From: Paludisphaera borealis
GTDB taxonomy: Bacteria; Planctomycetota; Planctomycetia; Isosphaerales; Isosphaeraceae
Length of the DNA stretch: 64,000 nt
Direction: 5' to 3'
NCBI RefSeq assembly: GCF_001956985.1
Contig: NZ_CP019082.1
Coordinates: 4,154,001-4,218,000 of the forward strand
The notes beneath the pieces are model-generated. The model did not search any database. It worked only from the letters and a program-made list of their open reading frames with translations, and had not been told where the DNA came from. Position numbers and translations under genes: made by a program. Below, one piece after another: positions 10,061 through 57,594 of the stretch (position 1 is its first letter; each line of letters starts with the position of its first letter).

Positions 10061-11698
10061 ATGAGTACGAACAGCGACGGCTCGTTGAATCCCGCGATCG
10101 GCGGGCCGAAGGGGGTTCGCCGGGGCCTGACGGGGGTGCGGGCGCTGATGGTCCTCGTCGCGTGCTGCGGGGCGATCCTCTGGGCCTGGCGGCATCTGGC
10201 GGAGAACTCCGATCCGGGGCTCCTCGAAGCCCGATCATTTCAGGAACGGTCGATCGGCATGATCCGGTCCGGCAAACCGGCCGAACGTGTGACCGGGATT
10301 CAGCAGTTGGAGCGTCTCCATGCAGGCGTCGCCTCGGTCTCAGTCCCTCCGCTTGTCACGGCGCTTGAGGATTCGAACGCCGAAGTCCGGATCGCGGCGG
10401 CCGGGGCCCTGAGCTGGATTTGCTTCGGCGAGTCGGGGTCGTGCTCGGGCGGCGAGGTCTGGCAAGCGGCGGCGGCGGCGTTGATCCGGTGCTTGAAGGA
10501 CCGCGATCCGGCGGTTCGCGTCGCGGCGACCAAGGCCCTGGCTTCGATCGGCACCAGCTTGGCGAACTCGGACTCCGGCGGAGAAACCGAGACCATCCGC
10601 GCCTCGGCGGCGGCCCTGATCCAGTGCTTGAACGACCCGGCGCCAGGTGTACGGTCGGCGGCGGCGATCGGCCTGGTGGACCTCGCGTCGCCGGGAATCG
10701 CGGCTCCGCCGATCGATCGCGCGACCGTCATGGACGCGCTGGTCGAGTTGCTCGGCGATCGCGACGCCGGGGTCCGTCTCTCGGCGATCAAATCCATGAT
10801 TTCGCACCCTTGGGGAAGCGTGCCGCCCTCGGCCTTGGCCGAGGCTTTGGAGGATGAATCGGCCGAGAATCGCGCGGCGGTCGTCTCCGGCTTGTCCAAA
10901 TTCCGCATTGGGCTGGACCCCTGGGTCCCCATCTTGCTGCGACTCGCCGCGCACGACCCCGATTCCAACGTGCGCGTCGAGTGCTTGAGGACCTTGAGTT
11001 TTACCTTCAAGCCGCCCGCCGTCACGTTGGCCGTCGTCCCGGTTTTGATCGCGAGTCTGAGAAGCACGGACGCGACCGTCCGGAGCCAGGCTGCCTCGAT
11101 CCTGAGCGCATTCTCGACCGACGCCGTTGCGGCCGTCCCGGACTTGCTCCGCGTCTTGAACGAGCCGCACGACGCCAAGGTGGCTTTGTTCGGGGGCGGC
11201 CCCTGGGCCGCCGAGCCGGCTTGCGAGGCCGCTCGGGCGCTGGGCCGGATCGCGCCCGGGACGGCGGAGGCGAAGGAGGTCGTCGCGGGCTTGATCGCGT
11301 TCACGCGTTCCGGCCCTCCAAGCAGACACGGCTGGGCGGCCTATGCCCTGAGCGATTTCGGAACGGCCGCCGAGGAGGCCGTCCCCGCCCTCGTCAAGCT
11401 CGTCAACGACCACCCCCTGGACGACAGGTTCGATCACGAGGCGTCGGTCGTCCTCGCGCTCACCAAGATCGCGCCGGGGACGCCGTCGGCGGGCCAGGCC
11501 GTCGCGGCCCTGCTGCCCGGCCTCCAGTCCAAGGTCTGGGTTTCCCAGATCCGGGCCCTCGACGCGCTCGGCCGTTTCGGCCCCAGCGCCGCGGAGGCCG
11601 TCCCCCGCATCCGCGCCCTGAAAGACGATCCCAGAGCCGAAGTCAGAAGGGCCGCGGCAAGGGCGCTGAGCGACATCGAGAACGAGCAGGCGCCGTGA
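10061..11698 (+). CDS. Membrane-anchored HEAT-repeat protein
   Basis: The product has 545 residues. A single transmembrane helix at about 27-43 follows a short N-terminal tail, so the remainder probably lies on the outer face of the inner membrane. From about residue 80 onward there are ten or more HEAT/PBS-type repeats (for example LEDSNAEVRIAAAGALSWI, LKDRDPAVRVAATKALASI, LRSTDATVRSQAASILSAF). Such solenoids are protein-binding scaffolds. Nothing in the sequence identifies a partner. Confidence 0.75.
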   Translation: MSTNSDGSLNPAIGGPKGVRRGLTGVRALMVLVACCGAILWAWRHLAENSDPGLLEARSFQERSIGMIRSGKPAERVTGIQQLERLHAGVASVSVPPLVTALEDSNAEVRIAAAGALSWICFGESGSCSGGEVWQAAAAALIRCLKDRDPAVRVAATKALASIGTSLANSDSGGETETIRASAAALIQCLNDPAPGVRSAAAIGLVDLASPGIAAPPIDRATVMDALVELLGDRDAGVRLSAIKSMISHPWGSVPPSALAEALEDESAENRAAVVSGLSKFRIGLDPWVPILLRLAAHDPDSNVRVECLRTLSFTFKPPAVTLAVVPVLIASLRSTDATVRSQAASILSAFSTDAVAAVPDLLRVLNEPHDAKVALFGGGPWAAEPACEAARALGRIAPGTAEAKEVVAGLIAFTRSGPPSRHGWAAYALSDFGTAAEEAVPALVKLVNDHPLDDRFDHEASVVLALTKIAPGTPSAGQAVAALLPGLQSKVWVSQIRALDALGRFGPSAAEAVPRIRALKDDPRAEVRRAAARALSDIENEQAP

Positions 11699-48308: not shown

Positions 48309-51300
48309 TCACGACAGCAGGAATTCGAGATCGTCGCGGGTAAGGGTCGAGATCATCCGGTTGTCGGCGTTGAGGATGGCGTCGGCCAGGTCGCGCTTCT
48401 TCTGCTGGAGTTCGAGGATCTTCTCCTCGACGGTGTTCCGGCAGATCAGGCGGTAGGCGAACACGTGCTGGGTCTGGCCGATCCGGTGCGACCGGTCGAT
48501 GGCCTGGGCCTCGACGGCGGGGTTCCACCAGGGGTCGAGCAGGTAGACGTACTCGGCGGCGGTCAGGTTGAGGCCGAGGCCGCCGGCCTTCAGGCTGATC
48601 AGGAAGATCGGGCAGTCGGGATCGCTCTGGAACCGATCGACCTTCGCGGCGCGGTTGCGGGTGCGGCCGTCGAGGTACTCGTACGTCAGCTTCGCCTGGT
48701 CGAGCCGCTCGCGGACGATCGCCAGGAAGCTCGTGAACTGCGAGAAGACCAGCACCTTGTGGCCTTCCTCGACGACCTCGGCCAGCGACGGGAGCAGCAT
48801 GTCGAGCTTGGCGCTGGGGGTCGAGGCCAGCTCGTCGTTGATGAGGCCCGGGTGACAGGCAGCCTGGCGGAGCCGCAAGAGGGCTTCGAGGACCTCGATC
48901 TTCGACCGGTTCAGCTCGGCCGTGTCCTTCTTGAGCAGGGCGTCGCGGTAGTGGATGCGCAGCTCTTCATAGGTCCGCCGCTGTTCGGTCTCCATGTCGC
49001 AGTAGAGGGTCTGCTCGGTCTTGTCGGGCAGGTCCTTGACGACCTCGGACTTGGTGCGGCGGAGGATGAACGGCTTCAGCGCCTTGGACAGCAGCACGCG
49101 GTCCTCGGCCTCGACGTTCGACGAGGCGCTCGCGCTGGCGTAGCGTTTGAAGATGGTGTCGGTGCCGAGCATGCCGGGGTTGAGGAATTCGAGGATCGAC
49201 CAGAGCTCGCCGATGTGGTTCTCGATCGGCGTACCGCTGATCGCCAGCTTGTGGCGGCTGTTCAAGAGCCGGGCGGCCTTGGCCGACTGGCTCTCGGAGT
49301 TCTTGATCGCCTGGGCCTCGTCAAGCATGACGTAGTCGAACTCGATGTTGGCCAGCTCGGCGATGTCGGTGCGCAGCGTGCCGTAGGTGGTGACGATCAG
49401 GTCGTACTCGGGGAACTTCTCGCGGAGCGGGTGCCGGCCGGGCCCGGTGTAGTCGAGGACCTTGAGCCGGGGCGTGAACTTCTCGGCTTCCGAGAGCCAG
49501 TTGAAGACCAGCGAACGGGGCACGACGGCGAGGCTCGGCCCCTTGGCCTGGCGGCGGAACCGCCGGCGCTGGAGCAGGGCGAGGACCTGGATCGTCTTGC
49601 CCAGACCCATGTCGTCGGCGAGGATGCCGCCGAAGCCGAACCGCTGGAGGTAGTCGAGCCAGCCGAGGCCCTCGCGCTGGTACGGCCGCAGCTCGCCGTG
49701 GAAGCCCGGCGGCGAATCGAGCGCGATCACCCCCTCGAACTGGCGGAGTTGCTGGCGGACCTTCTCGAACGCCGCGTCGATCTGGATCTCGGGCTGGTTG
49801 GCCAGCAGCGCGTCGAGCACGCCGGCCTGCGACGCGTTGAACCGCAAGGCGCCGTTCTCGGCCGAGCCCAGGTCGGCGAGCATCCCGTACCGCTTGAGCC
49901 ACTCTTCCGGGAGCATCCCCATCGAGCCGTCGCCCAGCTCGATCATCGACTCGCCCCGACGCGCCGCGGAGAGCAGCTCGGGGAGGCTGACGCTCTGGCC
50001 GCCGTAGTCGACGCCGCCGTCGAGGTCGAACCAGTCGATGCCGGTCGACAGCGCGAGCTTGAACTCGCCGGCCGGGCGGATCAGCTTGCCCTCGGCCTCG
50101 ATCCGCCAGCCGAGCTGGACCAGCTCCTTGGTGACGATCCCCATCCGCTTGGCCGGCAGCTCCAGCGTGTTGGGATCGAGGCGGGGGTCCTTGGCCTCGC
50201 GGAACCCCAGCTCGAACAGTTTGACGTCGGCGGCCGACTCGGTGCGGGGGTCGCGGCGGATCACCAGGCCCAGCTCGGTCGAGACCGCCAGCGGGGTCGT
50301 CCGGCCGGCGGGGATCACCGCGCCGTCGTAGTCGAACTCCAGCTCGCCCAGCAGCTTGTCGGCGGCCAGCCCCCAGTTCTGCCGGGGCGTGCGCAGGGTC
50401 AGGCAGGGCCGGGGTTTGGCGACGATCTCCTCAAGCTGGATCGACTCGACCAGCTCGGTCGAGGGGACCCGGGTCTCGGCCAGGATGCGGCCGAGCATCA
50501 GATCCTGCTGGGGTTCGACGAAGGTGATCTCCTTCTCGTACCGCAGCCGCTGGATCCAGGTCATCACCCCCAGGTCGTCGAACCGCGCGGCGCGGCCGAC
50601 GCCGAGGACCAGCAGGCCGGGGACCAGGACCAGGGGCTCGGCCAGGTCCATGCGGTTGTCGCCGCGGCGCAATCCGCCGCGCCAGGCCCATCGCTTGCCT
50701 CCCGCCTCGGTGCGGATGTCGAGGCTGAACCGCCAGGGCTGGCCGTCGTCCCACCGCATCGTCGGCGGGTCGTCTTCGCCGTCGGTGCGGCGGAGCCTCA
50801 GCCGGCCGGACCGCGCCAGGCGTTCGACGAGCGCGGCCTGATCCTTGCGGAGGACGAACCGCCGCGTGCCCCGCATGTCGCTGACGCTCGACCGCGCCGG
50901 GACGTGAGGCGCGCCGTTGCCGGGAATCGCGGTCGCGCCGGCGGTTGCGGCAGCCGTCGCCGTCGCGCTGGTTCCCGCTCCGACGCTGGCTCCGGTTCCG
51001 GTCGCGGTTTCGGCGCCGGCGGCCGGGGTGGTGGAGACGCCGTGGTGGGCCTCGTCGAGCAGCGCGAGCAGCAGGCGGTCTTCGGGGTCGTATTTGACGT
51101 GCGCGGCGCGGGGGGCGTACCACCAGGGGCGGAGCGGTCCCCACTCGCCGGTGGGCTTGCGCTGGCGGCGGGCGAGGTCGATGACGATCTGGTTGTGCGA
51201 CTGGGTGGCGCCGACGTCGAGGACGTAGACGAGCAGCCGCTTGGCGTTGCGGTTGACGGCCTTGGCGCGGGGCGAGGCGCCGACGGGCGTGGCCGAGCCG

Positions 51301-52176: not shown

Positions 52177-54886
<2,710 letters not shown>

Positions 54887-54939: not shown

Positions 54940-55260
54940 TCACGACTCCACAGGGCCGATCCGGAACCGCAGCGAGCTGATGGTCGAGCCGCGAACGGTG
55001 GCGCGGAGGGCCTGGAGCAGTTCCGCCTTGCGGTAGGCCGAGAGTTCTTCGAGCAAGGCGGGATGGTCCACGGTGACGGTCAAAACGCCGCGTCGCACGT
55101 CGCCCAGCCGGGTCCGCCCCGCGTAGCCTTCGCCGAGGGCGGCGTTCCAGGCGAGTTCCAGCTCTCCCGAGGCGTGCAGCCGGGCGTAGCCGCGTACGGC
55201 GAACAGCTCGCCGAGTACGTCGGACAGGGCCCTGGGTCCGCGCGCGTTGGGGTTCGACAT
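54940..55260 (-). CDS. DUF721/DciA-like protein
   Basis: The product has 106 residues. The DUF721 pattern (LSDVLGELFAVRGYARL, ELAWNAALGEGYAGRTRLGD, then LTVTVDHPALLEELSAYR) is clear. DciA-type members load the replicative helicase in bacteria without DnaC/DnaI. The ATG at 55260 follows an alternative GTG at 55269. It occupies the position between dnaN and gyrB where recF often sits, which agrees with a role in replication initiation. Confidence 0.8.
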   Translation of the reverse strand: MSNPNARGPRALSDVLGELFAVRGYARLHASGELELAWNAALGEGYAGRTRLGDVRRGVLTVTVDHPALLEELSAYRKAELLQALRATVRGSTISSLRFRIGPVES

Positions 55261-55303
55261 GGCTGCCACGATCCGTTCCCGAGAGGAACTCGACTCGCCC
55301 GGC

Positions 55304-56422
55304 TCAGCGTTCGCGCGTGAGCGGCATCACGACGTAGGTGTACTGGTCCTTGGTCCGGAAGACGGCCGCGTTCTTGGCGTCGATCAGTTCGGCGGTCAGT
55401 TCGGCCCCGTCGTCCAGGGTCTTGAGCGCGTCGAGCAGGTAGCGGGGGTCGAACGTGATCTCGACCGGCTTGCCGTCGTAGTCGATCGGCAGGTCCACCT
55501 GCGAGCTCCCCACGTCGGCCGCCTGGCTCGACAGCGTCAGCGAACCGGCGCCGAACTGGAAGTCGACCCCCCGGCTCTCGTCGCTGGTGACGATCGACGC
55601 TTGCTCGACGGCCAGCCGGAGCGGACCGGCGACTAGCGGAATCTTGATCTCGACGGTCGCCGGAAAGACGTCCTGGTAACGAGGGAACCGGCCTTCCACC
55701 AGCCGGCTGTAAATCACGGCGCTCTCGGTGCGGACCAGCACGGCGGTCCCCGACTGGATCGTCAGATGGACGAGCAGATCGTCGTCGACCAGGTTCCGCT
55801 CGATCAGCTTGAGGGCCTTGACCGGGATCACCGGGGTCCCGCTCGGGGCCGGGGGATCGTTCTCGGCCTCGGCCGTCGTGATCATCTTGGCCAGCCGCCG
55901 GCCGTCGGTCCCGACCATCGAGAGGTTCTCGGCCGTCAGCTCCACGAGCACGCCGCCGAGCGCGTACCGGGCGCTGTCGAGGTCGGTGGCGAAAACCGTG
56001 CGGCGGATCAGCTTCTTGAGATTGCCCGCGGAGATCACATGATAGCTGGTCGCCGCGAAATCGGGAACCTCGGGATAAAGGCTCGGATCTTCCAGGGGGA
56101 GTTTGAACGACGCGTGCCGGCCCTTGACGAGCAGGTGTTCGTCGGTCGTTTCGAGCATCAGCTCCTCGTCCCCGGCCGTCCGCAAGATCGACCCGATCCG
56201 CGTCGTCGGCAGGATGACCGAGCCGGGCTCCTCGATCTTGACGCCGAGCACCCGGTGGCGGATGCCGACCTCAAGGTCGGTCCCCATCAGCACCGAGCCC
56301 TCGTCGGCGTCGACCACGAGCTTCACGTTCTGCAGGATCGGCTTGGGACTCCGTGCGGGAACCACGCCACTGACCATGGTGAACGCGGTGAGCAGTCCTT
56401 CGCGGTTGCACAAAGCCCTCAT
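55304..56422 (-). CDS. dnaN: DNA polymerase III beta clamp
   Basis: The product has 372 residues, the usual length. It has the three repeated clamp domains; phrases such as PILQNVKLVVDADEGSVLM, DLDSARYALGGVLVEL and KPVEITFDPRYLLDALKTL mark them. It ends in TYVVMPLTRER, the conserved C-terminal strand. The ring tethers polymerase to DNA. It begins directly beside the candidate origin and reads away from it, toward DciA and gyrB. Confidence 0.96.
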   Translation of the reverse strand: MRALCNREGLLTAFTMVSGVVPARSPKPILQNVKLVVDADEGSVLMGTDLEVGIRHRVLGVKIEEPGSVILPTTRIGSILRTAGDEELMLETTDEHLLVKGRHASFKLPLEDPSLYPEVPDFAATSYHVISAGNLKKLIRRTVFATDLDSARYALGGVLVELTAENLSMVGTDGRRLAKMITTAEAENDPPAPSGTPVIPVKALKLIERNLVDDDLLVHLTIQSGTAVLVRTESAVIYSRLVEGRFPRYQDVFPATVEIKIPLVAGPLRLAVEQASIVTSDESRGVDFQFGAGSLTLSSQAADVGSSQVDLPIDYDGKPVEITFDPRYLLDALKTLDDGAELTAELIDAKNAAVFRTKDQYTYVVMPLTRER

Positions 56423-56725
56423 GCGCTTTCCTCACGTCTTGTCTTGACGATGTTCCCCGGGAATCCCGGGGAGGGGGCCTCGCCCTGCCTCGAATACGCC
56501 GGGCCTGGAGGCCGCTCAGACGGCCTGGGAGAGCGAACCGTCTCCCGCACACGACACGACCCGAAGATCAAGGCTCGACGCCAGTGGTGGGCTCTGGTGG
56601 GACGGCGACGCTCTCTCGTCCACCCGGTTCGCGGCTGGCGAAGCGAGGGAGAAGCCCTTGAGCCGGGAGCCCGGTCGAGCTTGTTCCCGGTTTTCTGCTT
56701 GTTTCGTCCCTCTGAGAGGAACGAA

Positions 56726-57215
56726 TAGATAACTCTACCGCCGTAATAATCATAGAGTGGCGGCCGCGCTGTGGATAACTTCGGCAGTGCCTGACCAAAC
56801 CAAGGATACCAAAGAACTTACTCGAATACAACCGCGCCTCGACCTGTCGACCAAGTTGTGGATAACTCGGTGCACGGCCCGGGCGCAACTGTCGACGACG
56901 GCGCATGAAACGCCCTTCGGCCTCGGCCCGTTGTGGACGAAATCCGTCCCTGCGCAGCCTGTCGACGACTTATCAACAGGTTGTCCACGGCCCCCAAACG
57001 GGGGACTTTGCGAGTCAGGAAAATCGGGTGCTCTGGGAGCCAGAACCCCAAGTGTGCCGATCCGGCTGTTTGCGCTTCCGAGCGGTGTTTGTTTCGGTCA
57101 GAGAAGGGCGTCGGGTTGAGAACAATAGCCAGACTTTACCGCAAGACTTTTCTTCTGGGGGCGGGAATTCGGCTGTAAGTCTTGCATTATTATTGTGTTA
57201 CGGAATTCATAACGC
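56726..57215. other. Probable chromosomal replication origin (oriC)
   Basis: The 930-bp gap 56423-57354 has no credible gene. TGTGGATAA (perfect DnaA box, reverse TTATCCACA) occurs at 56770-56778 and 56857-56865. Near-boxes are TGTGGACGA at 56932-56940, TTATCAACA at 56970-56978 and TTGTCCACG at 56981-56989. CTGTCGAC occurs three times (near 56844, 56888 and 56959). An AT-rich tract (GCATTATTATTGTGTTACGG at 57183-57202) follows and could be the unwinding element. dnaN is adjacent, and gene direction switches here. dnaA itself is not within the window. Confidence 0.8.
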
Positions 57216-57354
57216 CCCCGTCGAATGGCTGGGCCAGAATGCCACGGATGGGCCGCGGCTTGACAGGGGGTGGGCGATCTTCGAAGATCCCGGCTAGGTG
57301 GGCCGGGCCGCGTGGGTCGACGCAGGGGACTTGGGGCTGGGGAGACGACCGACG

Positions 57355-57594
57355 ATGGACCTCGGATATACGCCACGCCAGGGGCAGTATCTCGCGTTCA
57401 TCTACTACTACACGAAGCTCCAAGGCGTTCCGCCCGCCGAGGCCGACATGGCGCGGTACTTCCGGGTCAGCCCCCCGACGGTCCACGAGATGGTCAAGAC
57501 GCTGGATCGGCAGGGCTTCATCGCCCGACAGCCGGGCGCGCCCCGCTCGATCCGCCTGCTCGTGACCCGGGCGGATCTCCCGGACCTGGAATGA
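57355..57594 (+). CDS. Stand-alone LexA-type winged-helix DNA-binding protein
   Basis: The product has 79 residues. YTPRQGQYLAFIYYYTKLQG and FRVSPPTVHEMVKTLDRQGF match the DNA-binding half of LexA, with the recognition helix at about 37-50. The S24 peptidase half of LexA is absent, and the protein ends directly after the wing (GAPRSIRLLVTRADLP). GGGGAGA lies 9 bases upstream. It is the first rightward gene from the origin. It may be a small repressor of SOS-type genes or an origin-linked regulator; both are inference. Confidence 0.8.
   Translation: MDLGYTPRQGQYLAFIYYYTKLQGVPPAEADMARYFRVSPPTVHEMVKTLDRQGFIARQPGAPRSIRLLVTRADLPDLE

Follow-up and report, generated by a model that had tools for sequence, protein, structure and literature searches.

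A probable chromosomal replication origin beside dnaN and about 84 kb from dnaA in Paludisphaera borealis

The dnaA–dnaN type of bacterial oriC is exemplified by B. subtilis, and origins apart from dnaA exist in other bacteria. A noncoding gap beside dnaN in the planctomycete Paludisphaera borealis, whose dnaA lies elsewhere, raises the question of whether replication of the chromosome starts there. The window, that is, the whole stretch of DNA analysed (64,000 nucleotides, C1:4154001–4218000), belongs to contig C1 (7,497,544 bp) of a 7.65-Mb genome in three contigs, the relatives of which are Isosphaeraceae (Singulisphaera, Aquisphaera and Paludisphaera). A preliminary description of the window had called the gap a probable oriC, and this call is supported by the rarity of its boxes in the genome, by a strand-asymmetry break at 4.20 Mb and by conservation of the block across genera. 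From this evidence and the sequence itself, we consider that the gap between dnaN and a winged-helix gene is very probably the chromosomal oriC, with its core at 56728–56992. The features are as follows (window coordinates).

52177–54807, minus strand: gyrB (ORF, longest start; Pfam)
54940–55269, minus strand: dciA, helicase operator (PF05258)
55304–56422, minus strand: dnaN, sliding clamp (TIGR00663, 207.8 bits)
56710–56759, no strand: candidate DNA unwinding element, weak duplex (0.11% of 50-mers of the same genome are as weak)
56728–56992, minus strand (in the dnaN reading direction): conserved core of the probable origin (nhmmer E 6e-41, 140 bits)
56744–56755, minus strand: DnaA-trio-like CTA-TGA-TTA-TTA, candidate unwinding start, 14 bp beyond B3, after a GGCC-containing spacer
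56770–56778, minus strand: B3, perfect DnaA box TTATCCACA, 87 bp from B2
56803–56831, minus strand: conserved promoter-like block, probably that of dnaN: TTGTAT (56826–56831), 17 bp, TATCCT (56803–56808)
56844–56851, plus strand: CTGTCGAC word, putatively functional
56857–56865, minus strand: B2, perfect DnaA box TTATCCACA, inner box of arm 2, 113 bp from B1
56889–56896, plus strand: CTGTCGAC word, putatively functional
56932: near-box TCGTCCACA, two mismatches
56959–56967, plus strand: CTGTCGACG, box-like, sharing the 11-bp register of 56970 and 56981, putative DnaA-binding site
56970–56978, plus strand: B1, near-box TTATCAACA, one mismatch, inner box of arm 1, with a homologous box in the family alignment
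56981–56989, plus strand: near-box TTGTCCACG, two mismatches, outer box of arm 1, 11 bp from B1
57164–57213, no strand: weakest 50-mer of the gap, alternative unwinding element, contains TTATTATT (0.08% of 50-mers of the same genome are as weak)
57298–57594, plus strand: winged-helix (LexA-DNA-binding-like) gene at the right edge of the gap (PF01726, 41.4 bits)

The gap extends for 875–933 bp from the start of dnaN (56422) to the next ORF (GTG at 57298 or ATG at 57356), and the profile matches given above confirm the identity of dnaN, dciA and gyrB beside it. The order dnaN–dciA–gyrB was retained in most of 80 dnaN loci; no protein similar to the winged-helix protein was found at the 80 dnaN loci (tblastn, 1e-4). 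The accessible part of a study of dciA names Planctomycetes among the phyla with dciA beside gyrB and dnaN (PMC5109545), an adjacency that holds here; unlike that context, the four leftward genes on the left of the gap include no recF, and the dnaN-linked dnaA of other planctomycete families is short and lacks DnaA_N. On the right, about six ORFs read rightward (five were scanned, all with Pfam hits, one below the cut-off). The genes had been described as diverging in the manner expected of two departing forks, which agrees with the local directions. However, genome-wide bias did not bear this out (with origin and terminus as fitted, 513 of 1028 ORFs are leading), and gene-orientation bias was dropped as support for the origin. 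The only DnaA match, a full-length dnaA, lies about 84 kb to the right, at ~4.295–4.296 Mb, the gap site being at 4.2107–4.2110 Mb; dnaA is therefore not adjacent to the gap, as had been noted, and in this the locus departs from the dnaA–dnaN type.

DnaA boxes are clustered in the gap beyond chance. The two perfect boxes, three near-boxes and three CTGTCGAC words of the preliminary description are all present, the third CTGTCGAC of the gap being at 56959; outside the gap, the window has one further exact copy, at 50044. There are 10 copies of exact TTATCCACA in the 7.65-Mb genome, two of them in the gap, 87 bp apart; likewise, two genus relatives have two of three (G028) and two of five (G031) genomic copies here. 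The looser pattern TTWTNCACA has two matches in the window against 0.27 expected (at least two in 4 of 100 shuffles). In a 1.644-Mb sample of the same genome, the gap was the top box cluster (score 10), followed by a cluster near a RepA-type gene (score 6). Seven sites matching YTRTCVAC, a pattern fitted post hoc after inspection of the locus, lie within ~219 bp, compared with 0.17 expected for the gap, and there were never more than two within 260 bp elsewhere in 2.04 Mb. For CTGTCGAC with at most one mismatch, we found no window-wide enrichment (88 versus 90.9 expected).

The core is furthermore conserved as one site per chromosome, as judged in P. borealis by a profile search of 2.04 of 7.5 Mb: the nhmmer profile combined 23 loci from outside the genus (without L112), and its next match elsewhere in this sample had an E value of 3.4. 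A box with at most one mismatch was found within 1.5 kb upstream of dnaN at 27 of 30 family loci (L112, L122 and L124 are the misses; the contigs of L112 and L123 are shorter). Box spacings were counted at 28 of 31 family loci, short contigs being omitted. Divergent box pairs were 114 or 115 bp apart at 11 of the 28 loci and 202–204 bp apart 11 times, and the 111–117 bp divergent class was empty in eight shuffles; with two mismatches allowed, same-strand boxes at 11 bp numbered 16 versus 0.9 in shuffled sequences. Other families were covered with 44 of their 49 loci; there, with one mismatch, the commonest divergent spacings were 134, 135, 124, 50 and 133 bp, and there were eight tandem pairs at 11 bp versus none in shuffled sequences. 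When the family arm motif was applied to these families, 17 of 44 best pairs fell at 124–127 bp, compared with ~1.3 expected (calculated by hand, all allowed spacings from 61 to 199 being taken as equal); because this exceeds expectation, the layout extends in part beyond the family, 27 of the 44 loci being without it by that measure. By these sequence comparisons, the site belongs to a conserved planctomycete layout, in which divergent DnaA-box arms stand ~114 bp apart and are often doubled at an 11-bp pitch. The dnaN genes of four public contigs that bear the names Candidatus Kuenenia stuttgartiensis or Paceibacterota (L192, L194, L195 and L199) are 53–58% identical to that of the window; since L192, L194 and L195 have the Isosphaeraceae gene order, their labels are probably wrong.

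The arms could also be followed where they have left dnaN. The 45 family genomes contain 22 exact copies of the arm motif GGGGAAAACCYGTYGA, 20 of which share a contig with dnaN and lie at most 10 kb from it (not those of G036 and G044); eight genomes have two opposed arms with at most one mismatch, 127–129 bp apart. Exact GGGGAAAACCYGTYGA is not in the P. borealis genome and, in its genus, not near dnaN, where the arms have changed. The one-mismatch arm motif was rejected for use across the class, where the matches listed were mostly scattered ones outside the family. Tautonia-type genomes have the two halves of the block apart: the promoter-like half is still upstream of dnaN, and a glycosyltransferase gene beyond gyrB adjoins the box half. 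The displaced half was recognized in G040 (E 5.7e-17) and Tautonia sociabilis (L193, E 1.2e-11), arm-motif matches lie 4–8 kb from dnaN in G039, G041 and G042, the module is flipped in L198, and it is barely recognizable in G012 (E 0.0038); the inner box of Tautonia-type arms no longer resembles TTATCCACA. The arms thus behave like a near single-site element, conserved independently of a position upstream of dnaN. This conservation away from dnaN and the asymmetry break together constitute the main argument for an origin.

The preliminary description had expected the minimum of the GC skew at the gap, and plain GC skew gave a weak answer. The window's own GC skew shows no sign change at the gap, and third-codon GC skew placed the break at 4.20 Mb on the first sample and at 4.17 and 4.03 Mb after denser sampling, a weak signal for which the best of 60 permutations equalled the fit (95% interval 3.8–4.6 Mb). 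A break near the site was obtained from a principal component analysis (PCA) of tetranucleotide strand asymmetry in a 2.04-Mb sample of C1, with net gene orientation regressed out. The best two-break fit to the first component was at 4.20 and 1.80 Mb (R2 0.240, 0 of 200 permutations as high), the origin break had a bootstrap interval of 4.05–4.30 Mb (search confined to 3.0–5.6 Mb), and the break was unchanged with K=3, K=5 and 10-kb chunks. The PCA thus puts the locus where strand composition switches between leading and lagging. With the fitted terminus at 1.80 Mb, the replication arms would be very unequal, ~5.1 and 2.4 Mb. Sparse skew samples of G012 and G040 did not point to dnaN, and the PCA was not significant for either (9 of 40 permutations reached the same height each time).

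A skew minimum next to dnaA had been named as the finding that would speak against the gap. The PCA fit disfavours it (R2 0.169 at dnaA versus 0.203 at the dnaN site), yet the bootstrap interval reaches 4.30 Mb, so that dnaA (4.295 Mb) sits at its edge. This edge position would suit an explanation in which the boxes let DnaA regulate dnaN and the origin has another location, such as one nearer dnaA; so would the promoter-like block between B2 and B3. However, we regard this explanation as unlikely: the Tautonia-type box half is conserved beyond gyrB, with the promoter-like half left at dnaN (and the module flipped in L198), the asymmetry fit favours the dnaN site, and the 8 kb examined around dnaA contain no box with fewer than two mismatches and no box cluster, for which dnaA was rejected as the origin site.

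There is an even slighter chance that the main origin is a RepA-type replicon near the contig end (~7.49 Mb), derived from an integrated plasmid. One TTATCCACA and a second near-box at 7489827 stand close to a PF10134 initiator gene there, but the asymmetry break is at 4.20 rather than 7.49 Mb, and a plasmid-type initiator gene would suggest an acquired element. The gene itself (L081:13237–14277, C1 ~7.490 Mb; PF10134, 267.7 bits) has TTATCCACA ~0.4 kb away, and its region, in lower-GC DNA near the contig end, looks like an integrated plasmid replicon. DnaA boxes serve titration too in other bacteria, and the cluster could accordingly be a titration site, or a product of chance, with no origin function; against the rarity of the boxes, their cross-genus conservation with fixed spacing and their place at the asymmetry break, we find this highly improbable.

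The promoter-like block is conserved in the family alignment and stays upstream of dnaN in Tautonia-type loci; a promoter scan returned nothing at its threshold, this block included. G040 has the block twice (L170:10457–10502 and 11604–11649), identical over the 61 bases shown. The trio-like element, which we compared with the DnaA-trio as described in the accessible part of PMC8235120, has a central T in three of its four triplets, and a similar element follows the same box in all six genus genomes, to which the pattern was fitted. The TTATTATT tract of the preliminary description is present (57187–57194), but it offers no support, since none of the five genus relatives examined has it within 1.5 kb upstream of dnaN, and was for that reason ruled out as a conserved unwinding element.

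For an origin in the gap, we propose that DnaA, made ~84 kb away, would bind B1, B2 and B3 together with weaker sites near B1 (56959, 56970 and 56981, at the 11-bp pitch). Because arms 1 and 2 are divergent with ~114 bp between their inner boxes, a DnaA assembly could span both. The weak duplex beside B3, with its partial DnaA-trio after the GGCC-containing spacer, would then open, and DciA, encoded just after dnaN, may help to load the replicative helicase on the opened strands (for its role and operon context, see the accessible part of PMC5109545), whereupon two forks would leave the gap.

The locus shares with the B. subtilis-type oriC a DnaA-box cluster by dnaN and gyrB and, after the last box, a GC-rich GGCC spacer, trio-like triplets and an adjoining weak duplex (compared with the accessible part of PMC8235120). 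It differs in that dnaA is ~84 kb away and the main boxes form divergent arms with 114-bp spacing and an 11-bp tandem pitch, a layout for which we found no description in the literature searched. Our open-literature search found no paper on a planctomycete oriC, although a computed DoriC entry may exist. As in other dnaA-separated origins, origin and dnaA are at different places; what differs is that relatives suggest a particular history, in which a short dnaA paralogue, found by dnaN in other families, moved away in Isosphaeraceae and is undetected in the genus of P. borealis.

This DnaA has all three domains (ATPase, DNA-binding and DnaA_N; Pfam), and no short DnaA was found in the genome, which gave one DnaA C-domain match even at E values up to 1; six genus genomes gave a single such match each above the cut-off. 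With this DnaA as query, 20 of 49 non-Isosphaeraceae loci showed a short DnaA (337–433 aa) that shares the strand of dnaN and ends 268–637 bp upstream of it. One more case, L206, is cut by the contig end, and the remaining loci, many of them on short contigs, gave none. All eight short DnaAs tested, two of them from Isosphaeraceae, have ATPase and DNA-binding domains without DnaA_N. In a class search, 26 of the 28 short-type matches listed outside the family were directly upstream of dnaN (tallied by eye; exceptions G045 and G102). Isosphaeraceae have the short gene away from dnaN, as in G037, G038 and G026, where the distance is 14–26 kb. Since the dnaN-adjacent gene of other families is this short paralogue, undetected in the genus of P. 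borealis, its departure is the likely history of a dnaN locus without dnaA.

Outer half-sites track the short DnaA across relatives, although the pattern was written post hoc and the rows are related, six being one genus. A composite of a box and TTTCC (RTCNACR-NN-TTTTCC or TTTCCC) was found upstream of dnaN at 19 of 19 family loci with a short DnaA and at 0 of 11 without, independently of the arm finder. The arm finder gave the same direction (Mann–Whitney P = 6e-5, n = 19 and 11), a value affected by arms that it missed or misplaced in L112 (contig too short), L122, L104, L106, L129 and L130. Short DnaA against arm motif near dnaN gave 23/5/1/11 over 40 of 45 genomes among the matches listed (Fisher 2e-5, rows not independent); this table was scored by eye, leaves out G006, G013, G023, G027 and G044 (no usable dnaN context), scores G009 as having a short DnaA on PF00308 alone and includes the incomplete genomes G025 and G035. 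On the dnaN tree, short-DnaA presence changes five times (the genus of P. borealis, G003, G005, G022 and g15). The outer site of arm 1 is TTGTCCACG in the genus, TTATCAACA in G005 and TTTTCCCCC in short-DnaA relatives. G003, scored without a short DnaA (92% complete, 600 contigs), has one outer TTTTCCCCG, one decayed TTTTGCCCT and diverged inner boxes; since it retains an outer site, it is either intermediate or the product of a gap in the assembly.

The half-site differs alongside a residue that we take to be base-contacting, that at the position of E. coli His434. It is His in 20 of 20 short DnaAs of other families and 3 of 3 long DnaAs, and Ala and Thr in the two Isosphaeraceae short DnaAs; the half-site is TTTTCCACA in other families and TTTTCCCCC in Isosphaeraceae. 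The long DnaAs of L132, L152 and L056 (Isosphaeraceae) have Asn at the position of E. coli Asp433 (GGRNHSTV), where most short DnaAs have Asp; this may bear on box preference, and we found no paper on DnaA D433N in the open literature searched.

These correlations suggest a two-initiator origin in which the short DnaA is the putative binder of the half-site. The claim covers relatives and ancestors only, no short DnaA having been found in P. borealis itself. We tentatively propose, at somewhat less than even odds, that in ancestral planctomycete origins long DnaA occupied inner TTATCNACA boxes and short DnaA an outer half-site 11 bp off (TTTTCCACA or TTTTCCCCC), in two divergent arms of fixed spacing, and that the genus of P. 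borealis and several other Isosphaeraceae lineages lost the short protein, after which their outer half-sites either degenerated or turned into ordinary boxes.

According to their accessible parts, two genome papers on planctomycetes, one of them treating a member of the Isosphaeraceae, set the chromosome to begin at dnaA (PMC5177795, PMC12603096); here, this would leave ~84 kb between the chromosome start and the probable origin. For this unusual phylum, a defined origin would be a basis for replicating plasmids, mini-chromosomes and marker-frequency work. If the reading with two DnaA proteins is true, these bacteria would offer a natural case in which origin sites changed at each loss of one initiator.
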